Source of the DNA: Haloferula helveola
Lineage (GTDB): Bacteria; Verrucomicrobiota; Verrucomicrobiia; Verrucomicrobiales; Akkermansiaceae
Direction of reading: 5' to 3'
NCBI RefSeq assembly: GCF_037076345.1
Contig: NZ_AP024702.1
Span: 4,402,001 to 4,466,000, forward strand
Length of the DNA: 64,000 bases
Under the pieces are notes generated by a model. The model saw only the letters and a list, made by a program, of their open reading frames with translations. It was not told where the DNA came from and made no database searches. This document shows, one piece after another, positions 36,113-64,000 of this stretch; positions within the stretch are counted from its first letter, which is position 1, and each line of letters starts with the position of its first letter. A program made the position numbers and the translations under genes.

Positions 36113-36814
36113 TCAGTCGTCGTTCTTTTTTCCGTCATCCGACTCCTCGACCGCGTCCTTGACGGCGTCGGGGAGCTCCTTGCGGCTCTCCAGGACCTTG
36201 TCGACCAAGCCGTAGGCCACGGCCTCCTCACCGGTCATGTAGTTGTCGCGGTCGGAGTCGCGCTCGACCTCCTCGACCGTGCGGCCGGAGTGGTGGGCGA
36301 GGATCCCGTTGAGGCGCTTCTTGAGGTTGAACATGAAGCCGATGGTCCGCTCGACGTCCGAGGCCGTACCTTGGGCACCACCGGAGACCTGGTGGATCAT
36401 CACGTGCGAGTTCGGCAGGCAGAAGCGCTTGCCCTTGGTTCCGGCGGTCAGAAGCACGGAGCCCATCGAGGCGGCGATCCCGATGCAGTAGGTATTCACG
36501 TCGCAGGTGACGAACTGCATCGTGTCATACATCGCAAGTCCGGCCGTTACCGAACCACCCGGCGAGTTGATGTAGATGTGGATGTCCTTCTTCGGATCCT
36601 GCATCTGCAGGAAAAGCAGCTGGGCGATCACCGAGTTGGCGACGAAGTCGTCGATCGGCGTGCCGATGAAGATGATCCGGTCCTTGAGCAGGCGCGAGTA
36701 GATGTCGAACGACCGCTCGCCGCGGCCGTCCTGCTCGATGACGACAGGAACGTAGTAGTTGTTCTTCGGGCCGGCTGCCTGGGGCAGGGAAGCGGGGAAA
36801 TCACTCATGGTCAT
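36113..36814 (-). CDS. clpP: ATP-dependent Clp protease proteolytic subunit ClpP
   Basis: A 233-aa protein. ATG 36814 overlaps the trigger-factor stop (ATGA), favouring it over ATG 36808. The catalytic triad is visible: S116 in GIAASMGS, H141 in [11 protein letters not shown]190 in DRDNYMT. The N-terminal part includes the [10 protein letters not shown] loop that contacts partner ATPases. The C-terminal 35 residues are acidic and rather long. ClpP forms the tetradecameric chamber used by ClpX, and by ClpC if present, as it is at 55.9 kb. Confidence 0.97.
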
Positions 36815-53274: not shown

Positions 53275-54144
53275 ATGAAAATCTGGCTCGATGGTGAACT
53301 GGTCGATGAAACGCAGGCGAAGATCTCCGTTTTCGACCACGGACTGCTCTACGGCGACGGCGTCTTTGAAGGCCTTCGCTTCTACAATCGCCGCGTCTTC
53401 CGCTTGGAAGAGCACATCGACCGTCTGTTCGCTTCAGCCAAGGCAATCCTGCTGAAAATGTCGTGGAGCCGTGAGGATGTTTGCCGTCATGTCCTTGAAA
53501 CCATCCGTGCCAACGATCTCGACGACGGCTACGTCCGCTTGGTGGTGACCCGGGGAACCGGCGGGCTCGGGCTCAATCCGCATCTTTGCGAGAAGCCGAG
53601 CATGTTCATCATCGCATCGACGATCACGCTCTATCCTGAAGAGTGTTACCGCGAGGGCATGGCGGTCGCGACCTGCGCCACGCGGCGTCCGGCTCCGGGT
53701 GCGTTGATGCCTCAGGTGAAGTCGCTGAATTACCTCAACAACGTGATGGCCAAGGTCGAAGCGATCCAGGCCGGTGCGATGGAGGGGGTGATGCTCAACG
53801 AGCAGGGTTACGTCGCCGAGTGCACCGGCGACAACCTGTTCCTGATCCGCGACGGAGTGCTTTGCACGCCGCCGGTATCGGACGGCGCGCTCGACGGTAT
53901 CACGCGACGCGTGATTCTCGAGTTGGCGGACCAGCTCGATGTGCCGGTTCGTGAGGCGTCGTTGACCCGCTACGATATCTTCACGGCCGACGAATGTTTC
54001 CTGACCGGATCGGCTGCCGAAGTGATTCCGGTAGCCTCTTTGGACGGTCGCGAAATCGGGAATGCCTGCCCCGGGCCGTTCAGTGAGCGATTCCTCGCGG
54101 CATTCCGCGAGCTGACCCAGACCAGCGGCACCCCGATTGACTGA
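53275..54144 (+). CDS. ilvE: Class IV aminotransferase, probable branched-chain amino acid aminotransferase
   Basis: A 289-aa PLP enzyme from ATG 53275. The PLP lysine is K149 in VKSLNYLNNVMAK. Other signatures are the N-terminal YGDGVFEGLRFYNRRVFRLEEHIDRL and the EaxxGDNLF-type loop (VAECTGDNLFLIRDG). The family transfers the amino group between Leu/Ile/Val and 2-oxoglutarate. D-amino acid transaminase or aminodeoxychorismate lyase are alternatives, but the GVFEGLRFY start favours IlvE. Confidence 0.88.
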   Translation: MKIWLDGELVDETQAKISVFDHGLLYGDGVFEGLRFYNRRVFRLEEHIDRLFASAKAILLKMSWSREDVCRHVLETIRANDLDDGYVRLVVTRGTGGLGLNPHLCEKPSMFIIASTITLYPEECYREGMAVATCATRRPAPGALMPQVKSLNYLNNVMAKVEAIQAGAMEGVMLNEQGYVAECTGDNLFLIRDGVLCTPPVSDGALDGITRRVILELADQLDVPVREASLTRYDIFTADECFLTGSAAEVIPVASLDGREIGNACPGPFSERFLAAFRELTQTSGTPID

Positions 54145-54151
54145 CTTTTTC

Positions 54152-54193
54152 AGGGTGCGGGAATGGTTTTCGTTTCGCATTCCCGCCGACCCT
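54152..54193. promoter_or_regulatory. Hairpin/inverted repeat upstream of mcsA-mcsB-clpC
   Basis: A perfect 8-bp stem CGGGAATG (54158-54165) with CATTCCCG (54178-54185) and 12-nt loop, extended by AGGGT (54152-54156) with ACCCT (54189-54193). It fills most of the 68-nt gap before mcsA. There is no T-run, so it is not a clear ilvE terminator. It could be an operator or leader structure for the proteolysis operon. It matches neither the CtsR heptad repeat nor the CIRCE element as I know them. Confidence 0.45.
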
Positions 54194-54212
54194 CCTTAGC
54201 TTGGGGGTGTTC

Positions 54213-54731
54213 ATGGATTGCGACAAATGCGGCAAGCCGGCGAAGGTGCACTTGACCCAATTGGTGGGTGGTCAGGTGAAGAAAGTCGCGCTTTGCAATG
54301 AATGTGCGGCGCAGAGCGGTGTGACGGATCCCACCGGCTTCGCTTTGGCCGACATGCTCCTCGGGGACGGAACCGTCGGAAAGACGCCGTCAGTCCTGCC
54401 TCCGAAGCCATCGGTTTCGAAGGGGCGGAGCTGCCCGGAGTGCGGATTCACGCTCGAGGATTTGAAGCGAATTCGACGTTTCGGGTGTGGCAACTGCTAC
54501 GTCGCTTTCCGTGACGAGGTGAACGACATGATCCGCGGCATGCACAAGGGGGCGACCCACTGCGGCAAGGTCCCCGACGGACTGATGGAGATGCGTCAGC
54601 GGAAACTCCGGCTGACGGAACTGAGGGAGCGGCTCGATCACGCGATTTCTGCGGAGAATTACGAAGAGGCGGCCGGCTTGCGGGACGAGATCCGGCAAAT
54701 CGAAGTCGCCTTGGAGGAGACCGAGCCATGA
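54213..54731 (+). CDS. mcsA: McsA-type activator of protein arginine kinase
   Basis: A 172-aa protein; ATG 54213 lies behind GGGGGTG, and the upstream TTG/GTG alternatives add only four residues. Two zinc-binding pairs are visible in the first 45 residues (CDKC, CNEC) and two more further on (CPECG, CGNC). The C-terminal UVR motif (LDHAISAENYEEAAGLRDEIRQIE) mediates partner contact. In Firmicutes McsA activates McsB and modulates CtsR/ClpC. It overlaps mcsB by four nt (ATGA). Confidence 0.93.
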   Translation: MDCDKCGKPAKVHLTQLVGGQVKKVALCNECAAQSGVTDPTGFALADMLLGDGTVGKTPSVLPPKPSVSKGRSCPECGFTLEDLKRIRRFGCGNCYVAFRDEVNDMIRGMHKGATHCGKVPDGLMEMRQRKLRLTELRERLDHAISAENYEEAAGLRDEIRQIEVALEETEP

Positions 54732-55855
54732 TGCGTTTCGCGACATTGATGAAGCACCCTGCCGATTGGATGACGGGCAAGGGGGCCGACAATGCGGTCG
54801 TGCTGACTTCACGGATCCGACTCGCCCGCAATCTGGCAAACGTTCCGTTTCCCGGTTGGGCCAAGAAAGGGCAGCGGCAGGAGGTGCTTGAGGAATTGCT
54901 TCCATGCGTCGAGGCCCTCGATTGCATGAAGGACGGGTTCTCGAAGCCGCTGGAGTCGCTGAGCTCGGTTCAGAAGCAGGTGATGGTCGAGCGCCACCTG
55001 ATCAGCCGTGAACACGCCGCACGCGGCGAAGGCAGCGCGGTGGTTATCGAGCGTCGGCAATCGATCTCGGTGATGATCAACGAGGAGGACCACCTGCGGA
55101 TGCAATCGATCCGTCCGGGACTCGACCTCACGGCGGCCTACGAAACCCTGAGCGAATTCGACGACGAAGTCGCCGGTGCGGTTGAGTATGCCTTTGATCC
55201 CGCTCTAGGTTACCTGACAACCTGTCCGACCAATCTGGGCACCGGAATGCGAGCGTCCTCCATGTTGCATCTGCCGGCGTTGGTGATCAGCGATCAGATC
55301 GGTCAGGTGCTCCAGGCGGTGAACAAGATCGGTCTCGCCGTGCGCGGGATTTTCGGTGAGGGGACCGAATCGCTCGGGAACCTGTTCCAGATTTCCAACC
55401 AGTCGACTCTGGGCGAAAGCGAAGCGACGATTCTGCGCCGTCTCGAGCGGGTGATCGCGCAGGTCGCCAAGCACGAGCGGAATGCCCGTGAAAAACTGCT
55501 CGAAGATGACCCCGACATGGTTTGCGACAAGATCGGCCGGGGTTATGGTGTGCTGAAACACGCATGGATCATCGATTCGAAGGAAGCGCTGAACCACCTG
55601 TCGCTGCTCCGGCTCGGCGGAGACCTCGGGTTTTTGCCCGGGGAAACGGTGGCGTTGTGCGACGAATTGCTGATGGAGATCCAGCCGGCGCACCTTCAGG
55701 TCCACAACGGCAGCAAGCTTTCCCCCGAAGAACGCGACGCAATCCGGGCGGAAATCATCCGCTCCCGGTTGCAAACCCTCCAACCCCCTGATATTCGTTT
55801 CATCAAGAAAACCGGAGGAGAAGACGACACCTCCCCAGACCTCGGCATCGCATGA
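54728..55855 (+). CDS. mcsB: Protein arginine kinase McsB
   Basis: A 375-aa member of the phosphagen/guanidino kinase family. [21 protein letters not shown] (N-terminal) and [20 protein letters not shown] (central catalytic loop) are hallmark McsB segments. In Firmicutes McsB phosphorylates arginines on unfolded or regulatory proteins, tagging them for ClpCP. It is translationally coupled on both sides: mcsA stop/mcsB start and mcsB stop/clpC start are each ATGA. No ctsR gene is present in front. Confidence 0.95.
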
Positions 55856-58371
55856 ATAACTTCACCCCAAGAGCGCAGCAAGTCCTCGCCCTCGCCCGCA
55901 AGGAAGCGGACCGGTTCAACCACAGCTACGTCGGCACCGAGCACCTCCTGCTCGGGCTTATCAAGTTGGGCCAAGGGGTCGCGGTCAATGTGCTCGAACG
56001 GATGGGACTCGACCTCGAGACCGTGCGCATGGAGGTCGAAAAGGAAGTGGGCACCGGGAATGGCCAGAAGGTCTCCGGCAGCATCCCTTACACTCCCCGG
56101 GTGAAGAAGGTTCTGGCGCTGGCCAACAAGGAGGCGAAGGCGCTCAACCACAGCTACGTCGGCACCGAGCACATCCTGCTCGGCCTGCTTCGCGAGGGTG
56201 AGGGCGTGGCCGCTCGCGTGCTGCGCCGCATGGAGGTCGATATCCAGCGCACCCGCAACGAGATCCTCGCGGAGATCGATCCGAACTTCAATCCGGACGG
56301 AGAGGATGAGGACGACGACGATTTGGATGTGTTCGAGGACGAGGGTCCCGAAGCCGAAGGTGGTGGTGGCGAGGGCAAGACCAAGACCCCCGCGCTGCGT
56401 GCTTTCGGTCGCGATCTGACGAAGCTCGCCACCGATGGCGAACTGGATCCGGTGATCGGCCGAGAAGGTGAGATCGAACGTGTGATCCAGATCCTTTGCC
56501 GCCGGACGAAGAACAACCCGGTGCTGATCGGCGAGGCCGGTGTCGGCAAGACCGCGATCGTCGAAGGTCTTGCCCAGGAGATCGCCAATGGCAACGTGCC
56601 CGAGATTCTCCGTGAGAAGCGGGTCATCACCCTCGACCTCGCACTGATGGTCGCCGGAACCAAATACCGCGGTCAGTTCGAGGAACGCATCAAGGCGGTG
56701 ATGGATGAGATCAAGAAGGTGAAGAACGTCATCCTCTTCATCGACGAGCTGCACACCATCGTTGGTGCGGGATCGGCCGAAGGCGCGATGGACGCTTCCA
56801 ACATCATCAAGCCCGCCCTTTCGCGTTCGGAGCTTCAGGTCGTCGGCGCGACGACTCTCAACGAGTATCGCAAGTACATCGAGAAGGACGCCGCCCTCGA
56901 GCGCCGCTTCCAGCAGGTCAAGGTCGAGGAACCTTCGATCGACGATGCGATCGAGATCATGAAGGGGCTCCAGGAGAAGTACGAGACCCACCACAAGGCG
57001 AAGTATTCGCCCGAGGCCATCGAAGCCTCGGTGCGTCTTACCGCGCGCTACCTGACCGGACGGTATCTGCCGGACAAGGCGATCGATGTTCTCGACGAAG
57101 CCGGCGCGCGTGCCCGGATCGGACAGATGACCCGGCCGCCGTCGATCAAGGAGTTCGAGGAGACGATCGAGCAGATCAACCGCGACAAGATCGCCGCGAT
57201 CGGCGAACAGGATTTCGAAAAGGCTGCGGCGCTTCGGGATCAGGAAAAGAACGCGAAGAAGGAACTCGAGCAGATCATCAACGATTGGCGATCAACCTCC
57301 GAGGAGACGGTGGTCGATGTCGGTGAGGACGAAATCATGGCCGTCGTTTCAAAGTGGACCGGCGTTCCGCTCCAGCGGATGGAGCAGAAGGAAGCCGCCA
57401 AGCTTCTGAAGATGGAGGAAGACCTGCGCGGACGTGTGATCGGGCAGGATGAGGCGGTGATCGCCATCTCCAAGGCACTGCGTCGTTCTCGTGCGGATCT
57501 CAAGGATCCTCGCCGTCCGATCGGTTCGTTCCTGTTCCTCGGCCCGACCGGTGTCGGCAAGACTTACCTCGCGCGCAATCTTGCCGAGTTCATGTTCGGC
57601 GATCCGGATTCCCTGATCCAGATCGACATGTCCGAATACATGGAGAAGTTCACGTCGAGTCGCCTGATCGGCTCGCCTCCCGGCTATGTCGGTTATGAGG
57701 AGGGCGGTCAGCTCTCCGAGGCCGTCCGCCGCCGCCCGTACTCCGTCGTGCTGTTCGACGAAATCGAGAAGGCCCATCCGGATGTGATGAACCTGCTCTT
57801 GCAGATTCTCGAAGAAGGGATGGTGACCGATTCACTCGGACGGAAGATCGATTTCCGCAACACGATCATCATCATGACCTCGAACGTCGGAGCCTCGACC
57901 GTGAAGCGTCAGACGGCGCTCGGTTTCGGTGCGATGGCCGAGGACGAGGCGGACTTCGAGGGGATGAAGGAAAAGATTCTCGAAGAGTCGAAGAAACACT
58001 ACCGGCCCGAGTTCCTGAACCGGCTTGATGAGTTGGTCGTCTTCCACATGCTTGAGAAGAAGGACCTCGACAAGATCGTCGACCTCGAGGTGACGAAACT
58101 CTCGGCACGCCTGCTCGAGAAGGAGATCACGATGGTGCTCGACTCCACCGCCCGCGATCTGCTGGTCACCAAGGGTTACGATCCGAGCTACGGCGCCCGT
58201 CCGATGCGTCGTGCAGTCGAGAAGTATCTTGAGGATCCACTTGCCGAGGCTCTCCTTCGCGGGGATGTCAAAGCGGGCGACTCGATCCGCGTGCTATGCC
58301 CCGAGGGTAGCGAGAAGCTGATCTTCGAACCGGTCGAGACCAAAGCCGAACCCGACGAGGCGGGGGTTTAG
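55852..58371 (+). CDS. clpC: ClpC-type AAA+ unfoldase
   Basis: An 839-aa protein. Two Clp_N repeats cover about residues 1-150 ([38 protein letters not shown]). AAA1 has Walker A GEAGVGKT (227-234). A UVR motif in the middle ([22 protein letters not shown]) is the McsB/McsA docking-type element that marks ClpC rather than ClpB. AAA2 has Walker A GPTGVGKT (564-571). The ClpP loop reads LGF (TALGFGA, about residue 690), so it should dock onto the ClpP encoded at 36 kb. It ends 32 nt before the convergent sulfatase. Confidence 0.97.
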
Positions 58372-58403: not shown

Positions 58404-59831
58404 TCAGTGGTCCGTGCGGATTGGACCCGGTCGATTGATTCGTTCGGCCCCCTTGTCGGCTCCCGGCAGGTCACCGCGACGGATCTTGGCCTGCTGATCG
58501 GATTGGTGAAGCGGTTGTCGGTCGGGCGTTGGGTTTGCTGGCACGCTGTCGCCGGTTTCTTCGATCCACTGTTCAACGAGCAATCTCATCCGCCGCAGGG
58601 TGTCGGAGTGATTCGTTTCGCCCGCTAGGTTGACCATTTGGAAGGGGTCGGCCTCGACATCGAAAAGTAACTCGGGAGGTTGAGGGGTGACGGTGAGCAG
58701 GGCTTGGCCCGGACTCAGTTCGCCCTGTGCCGCAAGCTCCCAAAGTTCGCGGACGGCGCCGAACCTGAATGAAGCGCTCTCACCGCTTACGTTGTGGCGC
58801 GCGGGCCACCAGTTGCGGATGTAGAGCCACTTTCCGGAGCGGACGGCTCGTTCGTGCAGTTGAAAAACATGCCAGTTTCGTTCGGCGAAAGCGACGTCCC
58901 GATGGCTGTAGGTCGGGTCGGAGAGCGTCGTGCGAAAGCTCGCGCCCTGCACGGTTTCGGGAATGGGGATGTCGGCGAGGTCAAGTATCGTTGCTGAGAA
59001 GTCGATTGATGAGACGAGCGACTTCGTCCGCCCGGTAGCGACCCTTGGACCGACGACAAGAAGGGGCGTTCGGATGCCGCTGTCGTACAGGTAGGTCTTG
59101 CATCTCGGGAACGGCCTGCCGTTGTCGGAGCAATAGATGAAATAGGTGCTGTCCAGGATTCCCTGACGCTCGAGCTCATCGATGATTCTTCCGGCGTAGG
59201 TATCCGTACGGCTGACCTCATGGTAGTAGTTCGCGAGTTCTCTGCGGGTGAGCGGTCCGTCGGCGAGCATGGGTGGAACCGGCACGTCGGCGGGGTCGTA
59301 GATCGGTGCCTGAGCGTTCTGCTGAAACGGGTGATGGGCATCGTGGGATGCGAACCAGAAGAAGAACGGCTGGTCCTTCGGACGCTCGCGGAGATGCCGG
59401 ATCCAGTTCTCGGACCCGGATGGACCGCTGTCCGATGCCATGGCGAAGCCGAGTTGGTCCGGCTTCGCCATGTGGTTCTTTCCCGACAGGAGCGTGTGGT
59501 ATCCTGCCTCGCGAAGCTCCTGGACAAACGTCCGCTGCCCGGAGGGTAAGGGGAGGTGCAGCTCCGGAGCCCCGGTGTTGTGAGGATAGCGTCCGGTGAT
59601 GATGGAGCACCGGCTGGGCGAGCACGAGGAGATCGTCAGGTAGGCATTGTCGAAAACGAGCCCTTTTCGGGCGATCCGATCGAGGTTCGGGGTGTGGACC
59701 TTCCGGTTCCCGTAGATGCCGAGATCCGCCGGGCTGATGTCGTCAGTGATGAAGAAAACAAAGTTCGGTGCGGCGGCGAAGGCCGATCCGGTGCCCAACA
59801 GGGCCATGACGAGAGTGAGAGGTTTCATCAT
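58404..59831 (-). CDS. Exported sulfatase (formylglycine type)
   Basis: A 475-aa protein from ATG 59831 (MMKPLTLVMALLGTGSAFA, signal peptide; the second ATG at 59828 is also possible). Motifs: FVFFITDDISPADLG (Asp pair 30-31), CSPSR (C70-R74), LSGKNHMAKPDQLGF, and YCSDNGRPFPRCKTYLYDSG. The C terminus carries a long polar tail (PTPDRQPLHQSDQQAK) not typical of the family. It is the last gene in the minus-strand cluster after the GH127-type enzyme. Confidence 0.92.
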   Translation of the reverse strand: MMKPLTLVMALLGTGSAFAAAPNFVFFITDDISPADLGIYGNRKVHTPNLDRIARKGLVFDNAYLTISSCSPSRCSIITGRYPHNTGAPELHLPLPSGQRTFVQELREAGYHTLLSGKNHMAKPDQLGFAMASDSGPSGSENWIRHLRERPKDQPFFFWFASHDAHHPFQQNAQAPIYDPADVPVPPMLADGPLTRRELANYYHEVSRTDTYAGRIIDELERQGILDSTYFIYCSDNGRPFPRCKTYLYDSGIRTPLLVVGPRVATGRTKSLVSSIDFSATILDLADIPIPETVQGASFRTTLSDPTYSHRDVAFAERNWHVFQLHERAVRSGKWLYIRNWWPARHNVSGESASFRFGAVRELWELAAQGELSPGQALLTVTPQPPELLFDVEADPFQMVNLAGETNHSDTLRRMRLLVEQWIEETGDSVPANPTPDRQPLHQSDQQAKIRRGDLPGADKGAERINRPGPIRTDH

Positions 59832-59839
59832 CGGGCCGG

Positions 59840-61909
59840 CTAGCGTCGTTTCGGTCCTACCCAAGGGAACTCCGTGATGCGTAGCGTGGTGGCTCCGTAG
59901 GGGATCAAGGTGATCGGTTCGGGCTCCGCTCCCTCGGGCAGCTCCGCGGGGCTTTGCGGAGGCCGTGCCGCCGAGTGGCGGGCCATCGTCCAGTAGGGAA
60001 GTCGAATTCCGTTGGTCTTCAACTTCAACGGTGCGGTTTCGGAAGTCCATGGATTCGAAGCGACGGAATCCGCGAACTCGAAGCGGATGTGCCGAGCGGG
60101 TTGGCGGATGACTGAGGCATGGAGTGCATAGTTCCATGGGCTGTCAGGCCGAAACTCGAGGTAACCGCGATGAGGGGCGGAGTCGGGGACATTTACCGGC
60201 GCGGTTTGTACGACATCCTTCTTACTCGATTTAACATCGAGGGCGAAAACCAGAGGTCCTCGCTCGACTGTTCTCGAGTTGGCGAACCAACGGGTGATGC
60301 GCACCGGCATGCGGAGGCGCAACCGGATCTCGTCGCCATCCTTCCACTTCCGCTTGAGCGGGTGCATGGTTCCCGGCTTCGGAGCTGCGAGCGTATCCCC
60401 GTTGACCGTCAGTTCGGCGGTCGGAGCCCAGGCTGGGATCCGGAGGTGCAGTGGAAAATCGACGGGAGCAGGGGTATGAACCGTCATCACTACCGTTTCC
60501 CGGAACGGGTAGTCACCTGACTGGGTGATCTTGATTTCCTTCCCGTCGGCTACCTTTGCGGTGACCGAGGACGGAGCGTAGGCGACAGCCGCGATACCCC
60601 GGTCCTGTGATGCCATCCAGAGGTGCTGCGTGAACTTCGGCCAACCCTGATGCAGGTTGCAGGTGCAGCAGGGGTAGCCCTGAAGAAGTCCGTAAACGAG
60701 GCGGTCTCCGCCGTCGTTGAAAAAGTCACGATCTCCGTGGTCGACCAGCACCTGGTTGGTTTGCTGGAAATACTGACGGGAGCGATGGTCGTCGGTGCAT
60801 TGGGTGGGCAGTGCGTTGAACGCGATCCGCTCGAGACGGTCTCCATGAAGCGGGTTCCCGGTGATCTCGAACATTTTCTCAAGCGAGAACATCATCTCGA
60901 CTGCGGAGCAAAGTTCCGAGCCGCGGTCCGGAGCGTCGCCGTGCATTCCCTCGTCCCCTCCGTAGAGACCGTTCGGCTGACCGTGAAAGGTTCGAATGTC
61001 GGAGAACGCGTTCTCGGTGGCTTTCAGATGGAGAGGATCCTTGTCCTGCTGCCAACGGATCGTGGGCGTCTTCATCATCTGGGCGAGATTGACGCAGTGC
61101 AGGGCAGGTCGGTCCTGGTCGGCTCGGATCTGGATATGGTTCTGAGGCCCCGGAGAGAACCATTCGGTGACGGGAACGGTCTGTTCGTGAATCAGGTGTC
61201 CCAGTTCGAGCAGGAAGGCATCGCCGGTGACGTTGTAGAGCCACAGAACCACCATCAGGTTCTCACCTCCTCTTTGGGCGGCCCACCAGGATCCGCTCTT
61301 CGGATTGCCAGGGTCGTGGAGTGGAGCCTCCGGTAGTGTCCTCAGTTGGTAACGGAAATAGCGCCGCATGCAATCGATCACCCGTGAATCCCCGGTGGCC
61401 AAGTAGTGTTGCTGCAAGATCTTCAGCATCACCATTCGGGGCCACCAGTCATCCGGCTCCAGGATTTGAGCTCCGGACGGGGGTGGCCCGCTGCGCTCGT
61501 TGTTGGAGAGTTCGGTGGGACCGATGTATCCGTCCTCGCGCTGGTTCGCCAAAGTCCATTCGATCCATCTCTGGGCTTTCGCTTGGAGCGCTTCGTCATT
61601 CAGAAGTCGGGCCAGAGGGTAGAGTCCGTCGATCCAGTAGGGGCCACGCTCCCATGTATCACCGTCACCCCCAAGCCAGGCATTCCGGTCCCCGCAGACT
61701 TCCGGATACCATTCGTCGAGGTGGCCGGTCATTCCGTTCGCCATTCGCTCGAGTTCGTCCTTGAGCCATCCGTGCGGTTGGATCGAGCCCAGCGGGAGCT
61801 CGGAGAACGGCTTGTCTGCAAGCGGTTCCCGATTGAAAAGTGGGCCAACGGGCTTGGCCGTGCCGAGTATCGGAAGAAGGGCGATGAACGGAGCAAGGTA
61901 GGCTTTCAT
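59840..61909 (-). CDS. GH127/DUF1680-type glycoside hydrolase, beta-L-arabinofuranosidase-like
   Basis: A 689-aa exported protein with a signal-like start MKAYLAPFIALLPILGTAKP. An (alpha/alpha)6 barrel fits ERGPYWIDGLYPLARLLND and the repeated helical pairs. The zinc site of GH127 is recognisable: E320 in GGDEGMHGD, C334 in SELCSAVE, and the Cys pair C414-C415 in YPCCTCNLHQGW; one of these Cys acts as nucleophile in the family. A C-terminal beta domain follows (LHLRIPAWAPTAELTVNG). It starts inside the upstream sulfatase stop (ATGA). Related families such as GH146 cannot be excluded. Confidence 0.85.
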   Translation of the reverse strand: MKAYLAPFIALLPILGTAKPVGPLFNREPLADKPFSELPLGSIQPHGWLKDELERMANGMTGHLDEWYPEVCGDRNAWLGGDGDTWERGPYWIDGLYPLARLLNDEALQAKAQRWIEWTLANQREDGYIGPTELSNNERSGPPPSGAQILEPDDWWPRMVMLKILQQHYLATGDSRVIDCMRRYFRYQLRTLPEAPLHDPGNPKSGSWWAAQRGGENLMVVLWLYNVTGDAFLLELGHLIHEQTVPVTEWFSPGPQNHIQIRADQDRPALHCVNLAQMMKTPTIRWQQDKDPLHLKATENAFSDIRTFHGQPNGLYGGDEGMHGDAPDRGSELCSAVEMMFSLEKMFEITGNPLHGDRLERIAFNALPTQCTDDHRSRQYFQQTNQVLVDHGDRDFFNDGGDRLVYGLLQGYPCCTCNLHQGWPKFTQHLWMASQDRGIAAVAYAPSSVTAKVADGKEIKITQSGDYPFRETVVMTVHTPAPVDFPLHLRIPAWAPTAELTVNGDTLAAPKPGTMHPLKRKWKDGDEIRLRLRMPVRITRWFANSRTVERGPLVFALDVKSSKKDVVQTAPVNVPDSAPHRGYLEFRPDSPWNYALHASVIRQPARHIRFEFADSVASNPWTSETAPLKLKTNGIRLPYWTMARHSAARPPQSPAELPEGAEPEPITLIPYGATTLRITEFPWVGPKRR

Positions 61910-63345
61910 GGGCTTGGGGGTTCTTCAGGCAACTTCCAGTCAATGGGTGGCCACGAGCCGGTTCTCGTGGCGGAGGATTCGACCGGCGGTCCCGAGAGAC
62001 GGGTGAATCGGGCGAGGCGGCTTCCGAGTCGGGTGAAGATCTGTGGATGCAGGTCCGCAACGTTATGGGATTCCTCAGGGTCGGATTCCACGTCGAAGAG
62101 CTGGTCTCCCCGTCGCTTCCATTCGCCCGAGATCACGGTGTCTTTGCCAAGGAGAATCTCACGCTTCGGCAGCGCCCCGCGGCCCGTCAAAGCAGGCAGG
62201 AGGTCCGTTCCATCAAGCCCTTCAGGAGCTGTGCTTCCGGTGGCCGTGGCGAATGTGGGGAAAAGGTCGAGATAGCATACCGGGCCGCCAAAGCGGCTCC
62301 CTTTATCGAACTTGCCGGGCCATCTTGCCAGGGCAACCACCCGCACACCGCCCTCCCAAGTCGTGAATTTGTTTCCGCGGAGAGGCTGGTTGCTGCCGCC
62401 GTGCTTCGGGTCGGCGCCGTTGTCGCTATGGAAAACGACAAGGGTGTTGTCGGCGATGTTCCGGCGGTCCAAGGCGTCGAGGATTCGTCCGATGTTCTCG
62501 TCCATCGACCGGGTCATCGCGGCGAAGGTCTGGCGCTTCGTGTTGCCCTTGCCCTCCTCGCCGTAATCCGGTGCGGATTCCCGCTTCGCGATTCCCTTGT
62601 CGGTATTCGGACATCGCGGACCTGCGGAATCGAAACCGACTGCGTCGAGATCATCACGCTTCGCCTGCAACGGGGAATGGGGGGCGTTGAATGCGACGAG
62701 CAGATGGAACGGGGTTGGGCGATTGGTTACGAACTCGACTGCCGCGTCGCCAAGAAGGTCGGTTGAGTATCCATCCTGGCGGAGGCTTTCATGATTCCTG
62801 TGCCAGTCCAGTTCCCCATGGCGCTCGTGGCTGAAGTAATCGATGGCACCGTTGTAGTGCCCGAGGAACTCGGTGAAGCCGTGCTCGAGCGGGTGGAACC
62901 TGGTGGAGGCGAGCCCCAGATGCCATTTTCCGATCAGACCCCGATGACGATAGCCATGCTCTCCCAGCCACTCCGCAATCGTGAGTTCGTCTCCGGGCAA
63001 GCCGTGGCGTGATTGCGGGTTGCAAACGCCATTCCAAATGCCGAAGCGGAAAGGGTAGCGTCCGGTCAGGCATCCAGCACGGGTGGGGGAGCAGATCGGC
63101 GACACGTAGAACCGGTTGAAGACGACGGACTGCTTCGAAAGCCGGTCGATGTTCGGGGTCGGAATCTCGCTTCCGTGGAAGCCGACGTCATTCCAGCCGA
63201 GATCGTCAGCAATGATGTGAAGGATCGAGGGAGGCTCGGCGGATGCGGTGGTCGACACCGCGGCAAATGCCAAAGCAATGTGACGCACGCTTCTTCTCCA
63301 GCGGTGGGAGGAGGGAATCCGGGAAATCGTTTTCAAGCCGGACAT
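61906..63345 (-). CDS. Exported sulfatase (formylglycine type)
   Basis: A 479-aa protein. ATG 63345 overlaps the upstream sulfatase stop by one base (TGATG). The basic start and hydrophobic stretch (SVRHIALAFAAVSTTASAEPPS) form a signal peptide. Motifs: ILHIIADDLGWNDVGFHG (Asp pair 47-48), CSPTR (C85-R89), LIGKWHLGLAST, and VFHSDNGADPKHGG. Coupled to the GH127-type gene downstream. Confidence 0.93.
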   Translation of the reverse strand: MSGLKTISRIPSSHRWRRSVRHIALAFAAVSTTASAEPPSILHIIADDLGWNDVGFHGSEIPTPNIDRLSKQSVVFNRFYVSPICSPTRAGCLTGRYPFRFGIWNGVCNPQSRHGLPGDELTIAEWLGEHGYRHRGLIGKWHLGLASTRFHPLEHGFTEFLGHYNGAIDYFSHERHGELDWHRNHESLRQDGYSTDLLGDAAVEFVTNRPTPFHLLVAFNAPHSPLQAKRDDLDAVGFDSAGPRCPNTDKGIAKRESAPDYGEEGKGNTKRQTFAAMTRSMDENIGRILDALDRRNIADNTLVVFHSDNGADPKHGGSNQPLRGNKFTTWEGGVRVVALARWPGKFDKGSRFGGPVCYLDLFPTFATATGSTAPEGLDGTDLLPALTGRGALPKREILLGKDTVISGEWKRRGDQLFDVESDPEESHNVADLHPQIFTRLGSRLARFTRLSGPPVESSATRTGSWPPIDWKLPEEPPSP

Positions 63346-64000
63346 CAAGGCTTTCGGTGTTTCGCCAGACTCTTGGCGACCTCGGGCCACGGCCGGACTC
63401 CGACACGATCGGCCCATGCTTGCCACTTGCTCTCCAGTTCCAGTCGCTGGTCTTTGGCCATTTCGGACAGATCATGGAGTTCCGATGGATCTTCGGACAG
63501 GTCATGGAGTTGCCAGTCCTCCTCGCGGCTTGCCACCAGCTTCCATTTGCCATCTTGGATCGCCCGGTTGCCTTCGTGTTCCCAGAAGAGGGTGCGTGAT
63601 CCGATGCCGTCACCGCGAAGGACCGGAACAAGCGACTCGCCTTCGGTGTCCGGTGCGCTTGCTCCCGCAACTTCGACAAAGGTGGGTAGGAGGTCGATGA
63701 TATGGGCGACCTGGTGGCTGACCGTGTTCGCAGCCGGCCGCGCCGATACCTTCTCTCCCGCCCAGAAAATCGCCGGACTGGCGGTGCCGCCACGAAACAC
63801 TTCACGCTTGTAGCGCCGGTAGGGAGTATTCGCCACGTTAGCCCATCCCTGGCCCAGCGATGACGTCCAGCCGCCTTTCCTACCCCAATCCTCGTAGTTG
63901 CCCGGGTTGACCTTGTGGCCGCCGATTCCGAACATCCCGGTTTCCTTGGTAGAGCCGTTGTCGGAGATGAAAACGACGAGGGTGTTGTCAAGCGCGCCCT
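63345..64000 (-). CDS. Arylsulfatase-like sulfatase, C-terminal part (5' end outside window)
   Basis: The frame is open to the window edge and ends with TGA 63347-63345. The visible ~218 residues begin GALDNTLVVFISDNGSTKETG, a sulfatase metal-binding strand. TASPAIFWAGEKV, HIIDLLPTFVEVAGAS and QDGKWKLVASREEDWQLHDL follow, as in other sulfatases. The catalytic Cys and start lie beyond the window. It is the most upstream member visible in this cluster. Confidence 0.9.
   Translation of the reverse strand, partial: GALDNTLVVFISDNGSTKETGMFGIGGHKVNPGNYEDWGRKGGWTSSLGQGWANVANTPYRRYKREVFRGGTASPAIFWAGEKVSARPAANTVSHQVAHIIDLLPTFVEVAGASAPDTEGESLVPVLRGDGIGSRTLFWEHEGNRAIQDGKWKLVASREEDWQLHDLSEDPSELHDLSEMAKDQRLELESKWQAWADRVGVRPWPEVAKSLAKHRKP

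Follow-up and report, generated by a model that had tools for sequence, protein, structure and literature searches.

Does an mcsA-mcsB-clpC operon that lies outside the Firmicutes, and without the repressor gene ctsR that usually accompanies it, encode the arginine phosphorylation pathway known from Bacillus? The question is raised by a stretch of 64,000 nucleotides from Haloferula helveola (hereafter the window), which covers positions 4402001-4466000 of a host genome that is a single contig of 5,677,198 bases (NZ_AP024702.1). Our answer, to which we assign a probability of about 0.82, is that the window operon is predicted to be a working phosphoarginine (pArg) quality-control system whose control is probably exerted by neither CtsR nor HrcA; it would most likely work like its Bacillus counterpart, but with neither CtsR nor the octamer lock of the Bacillus kinase. 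McsA, with its CxxC zinc fingers and UVR motif, would activate McsB, and McsB would phosphorylate unfolded or client proteins on arginine; the N-terminal domain of ClpC has two pArg pockets, with which the unfoldase would take the marked proteins before passing them to ClpP, and a YwlE-like low-molecular-weight (LMW) phosphatase would remove unused marks. The operon itself is ordinary for its phylum, and the value of the window lies in its contrast with relatives whose McsB is apparently kinase-dead.

The operon consists of three genes:

54213-54731, plus strand: mcsA, McsB activator, with four CxxC pairs and a C-terminal UVR motif
54728-55855, plus strand: mcsB, protein arginine kinase
55852-58371, plus strand: clpC, Hsp100 unfoldase, stop codon TAG

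The start of mcsA is placed at the ATG at 54213, with an in-frame TTG at 54201 as an alternative, and the mcsA/mcsB and mcsB/clpC junctions are both four-base ATGA overlaps, as the initial annotation of this DNA had read them. In profile scans with Pfam and NCBIfam, the mcsB product matches ATP-gua_Ptrans (PF00217) and, at 399.4 bits against a cut-off of 385, the protein arginine kinase model NF002194; the mcsA product matches UVR and, more weakly, the McsA model NF053706; and the clpC product shows two Clp_N stretches, AAA, UVR and ClpB_D2-small. ClpC has two AAA modules, and the UVR motif, which lies in its M-domain, and the LGF ClpP loop, both previously noted, are present. The nearest solved structures are 6fh1 for McsB (E 3.7e-87, with 8wtb also near, and with residues 12-349 of 375 aligning with solved McsB), 8wtb_B, the McsA of the solved complex, for McsA (E 1.7e-24) and 3j3t for ClpC (E 6.1e-295). 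By these alignments the structure-based likeness of the predicted McsA, McsB and ClpC is far beyond chance and, with three intact genes whose families and solved homologues agree, the complete McsA-McsB-ClpC operon that had been proposed stands.

McsB was aligned with its B. subtilis and G. stearothermophilus counterparts and with relatives, and the B. subtilis numbering was anchored on R337/D338, after which R190, R194, S285, R341 and C167 match the letters given in the papers. The eleven catalytic positions inspected, which we took to be the relevant ones by analogy with arginine kinase, cover the ATP arginines, the NEED loop, the catalytic Cys and the second acidic residue (R29, R31, H90, E119, E120, D121, R124, C166, R175, R206 and E211). 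The initial annotation had stated that McsB keeps its catalytic segments and had named loss of catalytic residues on alignment as the finding that would overturn it; in the window all eleven positions are identical to those of B. subtilis, and they are invariant in 111 of 111 close sequences, a set that includes the window protein and its own copy, L001. McsA has all four of its CxxC pairs, whose cysteines, from what is known of the family, are presumably zinc ligands. Arg-to-Lys changes at R29, R31, R34, R125, R176, R207 and R337 abolish B. subtilis McsB activity (PMC7235348; this and the other papers are cited for the passages of them that concern these proteins), and the window McsB has Arg at all seven equivalents (R29, R31, R34, R124, R175, R206 and R336). 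The C-terminal pArg receptor is likewise kept as S284, R336, D337 and R340 (S285, R337, D338 and R341 in B. subtilis), the equivalents of R337, D338 and R341 being invariant in the 111 close sequences, and ClpC retains its pArg-pocket glutamates E30 and E106, E32 and E106 being the ClpC pArg determinants given in PMC12583610. These features bear on the notion that the kinase acts on free arginine, as a phosphagen kinase, and not on proteins, which its guanidino kinase domain (PF00217) could suggest but which we regard as extremely improbable, given that McsB has no match to the phosphagen-kinase N-terminal domain, that the pArg-receptor residues are present and that McsA and ClpC are encoded together with the kinase.

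The ctsR-mcsA-mcsB-clpC cluster of B. subtilis and other Firmicutes has the same three proteins in the same order and the same residues at the catalytic, CxxC and pArg-pocket positions inspected, and ClpP and a YwlE-type phosphatase are encoded in the genome there as here. Unlike that cluster, the window has an ilvE gene in the place of ctsR and D189 and Q193 for Arg190 and Arg194, and HrcA and CIRCE were not found. Two further genes of the window enter into this comparison:

36185-36724, minus strand: clpP, likely peptidase partner
53275-54144, plus strand: ilvE-type branched-chain aminotransferase (Pfam/NCBIfam), directly upstream of mcsA, where Firmicutes have ctsR

The identity of this upstream gene bears out the claim that ctsR is absent from the locus.

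The two substituted arginines belong to a known device. In B. subtilis, phosphorylated Arg194, perhaps aided by Arg190, locks four dimers as a closed octamer, and R194 is needed for thermotolerance, R194K cells being heat sensitive (PMC8370763). At position 190, 62 of the 111 close sequences have Glu and 47 have Asp; at position 194, 73 have Gln, 28 Pro, seven Lys and one Arg. More distant relatives are looser, with Arg at 194 in G086 and at 190 in G110. The Arg190/Arg194 clamp is not taken here as defining for McsB, because in the McsB of G. stearothermophilus, too, position 190 is Gln (position 194 being Arg). We infer that the McsB branch of the window does not use the pArg194 octamer and, since the clamp arginines are absent and the pArg receptor is kept, activation would probably proceed through dimers or open oligomers together with McsA.

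The host genome contains three genes for LMW phosphatases. The genome search for YwlE that had been suggested as a check turned up a candidate with the loop CTGNTCRS, which lies outside the window, just upstream of an rpiB-glyA frame, presumably the same neighbourhood as that of ywlE in B. subtilis; the loops of the other two phosphatases are CMGNICRS and CTGNSCRS. By its sequence the candidate is of YwlE type, the residue at position 5 of its C-x4-x-R loop being Thr; in that place Thr favours phosphoarginine and Ile favours phosphotyrosine (PMC8001253). At this locus of the host genome (L032, 1994-3427) RpiB and serine hydroxymethyltransferase form one frame beside the separate phosphatase; a YwlE-branch phosphatase is fused to both of these enzymes in L219 (1459-3459) and to serine hydroxymethyltransferase alone in L220 (1465-3285).

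How unusual is such an operon? Of the 288 genomes sampled from the phylum, 277 have an McsB, as do 145 of 151 genera, damaged copies counted, and CtsR is found, weakly, in one of the 288. The McsAB-ClpC operon without CtsR is therefore normal for Verrucomicrobiota, and the complete phosphoarginine toolkit is commonplace in a phylum outside the Firmicutes. Its earlier presentation as unusual does not hold, all the more since McsAB outside Firmicutes has been published for Chlamydia (PMC10128030) and an mcsB for the verrucomicrobium Methylacidiphilum (PMC8024496). The placement of the operon outside Firmicutes was correct: 79 of 80 named relatives carry Verrucomicrobiota names and one is titled Bacteroidetes. 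Within the stretch around each, mcsA, mcsB and clpC occur together in 57 of the 80 named loci, detectable mcsA being missing in 10 and clpC in 14 (one locus misses both, and some are at contig ends).

This distribution is hard to reconcile with a recent horizontal import from Firmicutes followed by loss of ctsR. The gene set and order are those of Bacillus, and horizontal gain has been raised for the mcsAB of Chlamydia (PMC10128030), but such an import is very unlikely in view of the 277 genomes with McsB, of a ClpC tree that places the window with its family and of the recurrence of the ilvE-mcsA context, with ilvE directly upstream of mcsA in 69 of 90 loci, that of the window included (gaps of -1 to 508 bases; counted were loci with an mcsA preceded by 300 bases or more, with ilvE within 600 bases on the same strand). 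A gain earlier than the diversification of the phylum may have taken place.

Just upstream of an intact-looking mcsB, mcsA was not found, CxxC search included, in 16 loci, all of which have clpC (L012, L017, L021, L023, L025-L029, L080, L092, L106, L111, L121, L123 and L130). L123, titled Bacteroidetes, is probably a mislabelled metagenome assembly, its McsB (51%) and ClpC (71%) being close to those of the window.

Chlamydia belongs to a related superphylum. In Chlamydia trachomatis, as in the window, McsA, McsB and ClpC are found outside Firmicutes, and chlamydial McsAB and ClpC are in print (PMC10128030, PMC11708050, PMC5177608); the C. trachomatis ClpC together with its ClpP degrades arginine-phosphorylated casein, and the mcsAB operon is separate from clpC, whereas all three genes overlap in the window (PMC10128030, PMC11708050). 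Methylacidiphilum has an mcsB, Minf_0242, and a clp unfoldase gene with the neighbouring locus number, Minf_0241, named clpA by the authors, which were up 3.21-fold and 2.26-fold, respectively, on formic acid, the evidence consisting of transcripts only (PMC8024496).

What, then, might control the operon? A ctsR gene, the mark of CtsR-controlled class III heat-shock operons, was found neither in the operon nor in the genome by a search of imperfect sensitivity. The CtsR model (PF05848) has no match in the host genome, and among 14 control genomes it matched Lactococcus lactis alone and not B. subtilis, so that absence of CtsR is likely but not proven: the genome search that had been called for gave a negative, with less than full sensitivity. 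In the phylum the one match is in G049 (E 3.3e-4), where the score, neighbours included, is 23.2 bits and the cut-off 23.1. HrcA has no match in the host genome by a model that matched seven of the 14 controls, B. subtilis included, and no good CIRCE site was found in that genome, where one place with three mismatches lies 0.9 Mb off. Control of the operon is thus probably not via CtsR or HrcA, to judge from these searches, and, the phylum being apparently CtsR-free, the work of the toolkit there cannot be control of CtsR. Control by RpoH is unsupported: no RpoH match passes the cut-off in the host genome, the best of four sigma-family matches reaching 185 bits against 323, with two of the 14 controls passing.

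Several observations weigh against the operon being a working phosphoarginine system of the Bacillus kind. The McsA model NF053706 (121 bits, cut-off 210) and one of the two McsB NCBIfam models (NF053707, 373.6 bits, cut-off 500) stay below their cut-offs; the window McsB has Asp189 and Gln193 where the clamp arginines would be; and the CtsR model missed B. subtilis, a control that bears ctsR. The Thr signature is present in only one of the three LMW phosphatases of the host genome, and phosphatases of the same branch in relatives read Ile, Val or Ser in 22 of 54 readable loops (58 loci, four without a readable loop), so that the specificity of the phosphatase is uncertain. The same loops led us to reject Thr as a mark of YwlE across the phylum, and the YwlE branch is therefore counted below by E-value with the protein of the host genome. 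Finally, kinase function looks dispensable in relatives.

This last point comes from 101 inspected genomes, a sample that is not random: the window genome and the 29 that ranked next to it, 12 members of genus g2, a set chosen for weak matches (30, of which 29 were usable) and a middle-score set of 30, which includes genomes picked for initially not fitting the phosphatase trend described below. L061 (G203), with no McsB match, was dropped before the counts, and G171, G183, G084 and G233 were partly read. An McsB was called intact by ten catalytic positions, H90 being left out because it varies among otherwise intact kinases. By this definition McsB is intact in 63 of the 101 genomes and damaged in 38, with one to nine changes in each damaged protein. 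The catalytic Cys is changed to Ser in 10 of the 38 (G224, G249, G055, G173, G117, G235, G193, G076, G192 and G183), this being the only change in G117, the weakest case; the corresponding C167S protein of B. subtilis is kinase-inactive, and G096 carries R124K, R175K and R206K, changes that singly abolish the in vitro activity of the B. subtilis enzyme (PMC7235348). Eight of the 63 intact McsBs have a changed Arg336 (G231, G272, G126, G061, G016, G182, G110 and G086) and, R337 of B. subtilis being essential in vitro, some of the eight may be weak kinases.

The damaged proteins have kept much of their context. All ten that were scanned match PF00217 over its cut-off and fall below the cut-offs of the McsB models. 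At their loci (L035-L064, L188-L207 and L232-L261, for example L191, 3986-5110, plus strand, and L188, 5854-6978, minus strand), as seen in short stretches, mcsA stands beside mcsB in 33 of 38 cases and clpC in 19, and several relatives with intact McsB, from the same families as the damaged ones, likewise have no adjacent clpC. Of 20 longer loci with damaged McsB, McsA was found in 19, its full set of eight CxxC cysteines being present in 18, and 16 have ClpC downstream; 19 of the 20 McsB frames are 352-389 residues long, that of G084 being cut to 183. Values of dN/dS are 0.14 to 0.60 in five of six damaged pairs (one is saturated), rough figures because synonymous sites are near saturation, against 0.01 to 0.07 in six intact pairs; by this measure damaged McsB looks like a protein under relaxed but not lost selection.

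The phosphatase follows the state of the kinase closely. At E <= 1e-12, a cut-off that was set after the values had been seen and that lies near the scores of paralogues (4.1e-12 for the Ile-type protein of G096, 1.2e-12 for a second match in G254), a YwlE-branch phosphatase is found in 55 of 63 genomes with intact and in none of 38 with damaged McsB; the counts are 55 of 63 and one of 38 at 1e-11, and 54 of 63 and none of 38 at 1e-14. Fisher's p for this split ignores kinship and is not usable as significance. Four of the eight intact genomes without the branch (G248, G275, G202, G129, G285, G272, G233 and G101) are less than 90% complete, and the link is not absolute, because four of 11 McsB-less genomes (G132, G142, G162 and G264) still have a YwlE-branch match. 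The split recurs within genus g2, which belongs to the same family as the window and which we infer to be Akkermansia: 11 of 12 intact members have the YwlE branch against none of 10 damaged ones, and nine of the latter have a single LMW phosphatase match, of the Ile type CLGNICRS (G193 has none). In g2 ClpC, Thr29, which lies beside a pArg glutamate, is changed in nine of 10 damaged and in none of 12 intact members, with E30 and E106 kept.

A ClpC tree of 69 rows, of which 17 are damaged (loci with adjacent clpC, one short row left out), requires six changes of the intact/damaged label, and branches with good support force at least five of them; several of the damaged rows sit on long branches. 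Both states occur in families f1, f16, f21, f30, f33 and f34, the damaged rows of f33 being partly read. With slightly better than even confidence we suggest that McsB repeatedly became a pseudokinase in the phylum, with McsA-McsB kept as a phosphorylation-free ClpC adaptor, and that the window represents the ancestral catalytic state. From the C167S mutant, B. subtilis McsB has been proposed to act as an adaptor independently of its kinase activity (PMC7235348). Other accounts of the damaged proteins are that decay of McsB may be under way or, clpC being non-adjacent in half of the cases, that McsB may have taken on a new role unrelated to ClpC. A search of open-licence literature brought up no description of McsB pseudokinases, and there is none in the McsB passages of PMC12599244, PMC12189002 and PMC5177608.

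Might the window McsB, too, act mainly as an adaptor or scaffold for ClpC with McsA, phosphorylation being secondary? The relatives that have lost catalytic residues with mcsA, and often clpC, still alongside lend this some weight, as does the half-life of MgsR in B. subtilis, 12.3 min with C167S versus 17.7 min in the deletion (PMC7235348). We nonetheless consider it unlikely for the window: there and among close relatives the catalytic residues do not vary and a YwlE-type phosphatase has been retained, which speaks for selection on the chemistry in this branch. Apparently kinase-dead McsBs that stand beside intact McsA and ClpC, even within the presumed Akkermansia, make the debated shares of McsB as kinase and as adaptor testable by comparison of relatives.

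The region between ilvE and mcsA contains two elements:

54157-54186, plus strand: perfect 9-bp inverted repeat GCGGGAATG-N12-CATTCCCGC, between ilvE and mcsA
54173-54202, plus strand: candidate promoter TTTCGCA-N17-TAGCTT, upstream of mcsA, weak evidence

A scan for consensus sigma-70 sites upstream of mcsA found no promoter; in seven of 114 scanned loci, that of the window included, the pattern TTTCG(C/A)A-N17-TA(G/A)C stops 11-12 bases short of the start codon. Not even the nearest relatives conserve the inverted repeat and, HrcA not having been found, it was rejected as a CIRCE-like element. The ilvE arrangement is not universal, as ilvE is upstream in none of the 12 g2 loci with intact McsB, and both this context and the promoter-like element are best treated as sequence leads, not proof. 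Those g2 loci (L176-L187) have a direct repeat, CATGACA-ATC-CATGACAC, before mcsA, which is a possible operator and in which one base is changed in L186. Beyond clpC, on the minus strand, the window contains three frames that we named by eye as sulfatase-like (58404-60137, 61906-63426 and 63345-63998).

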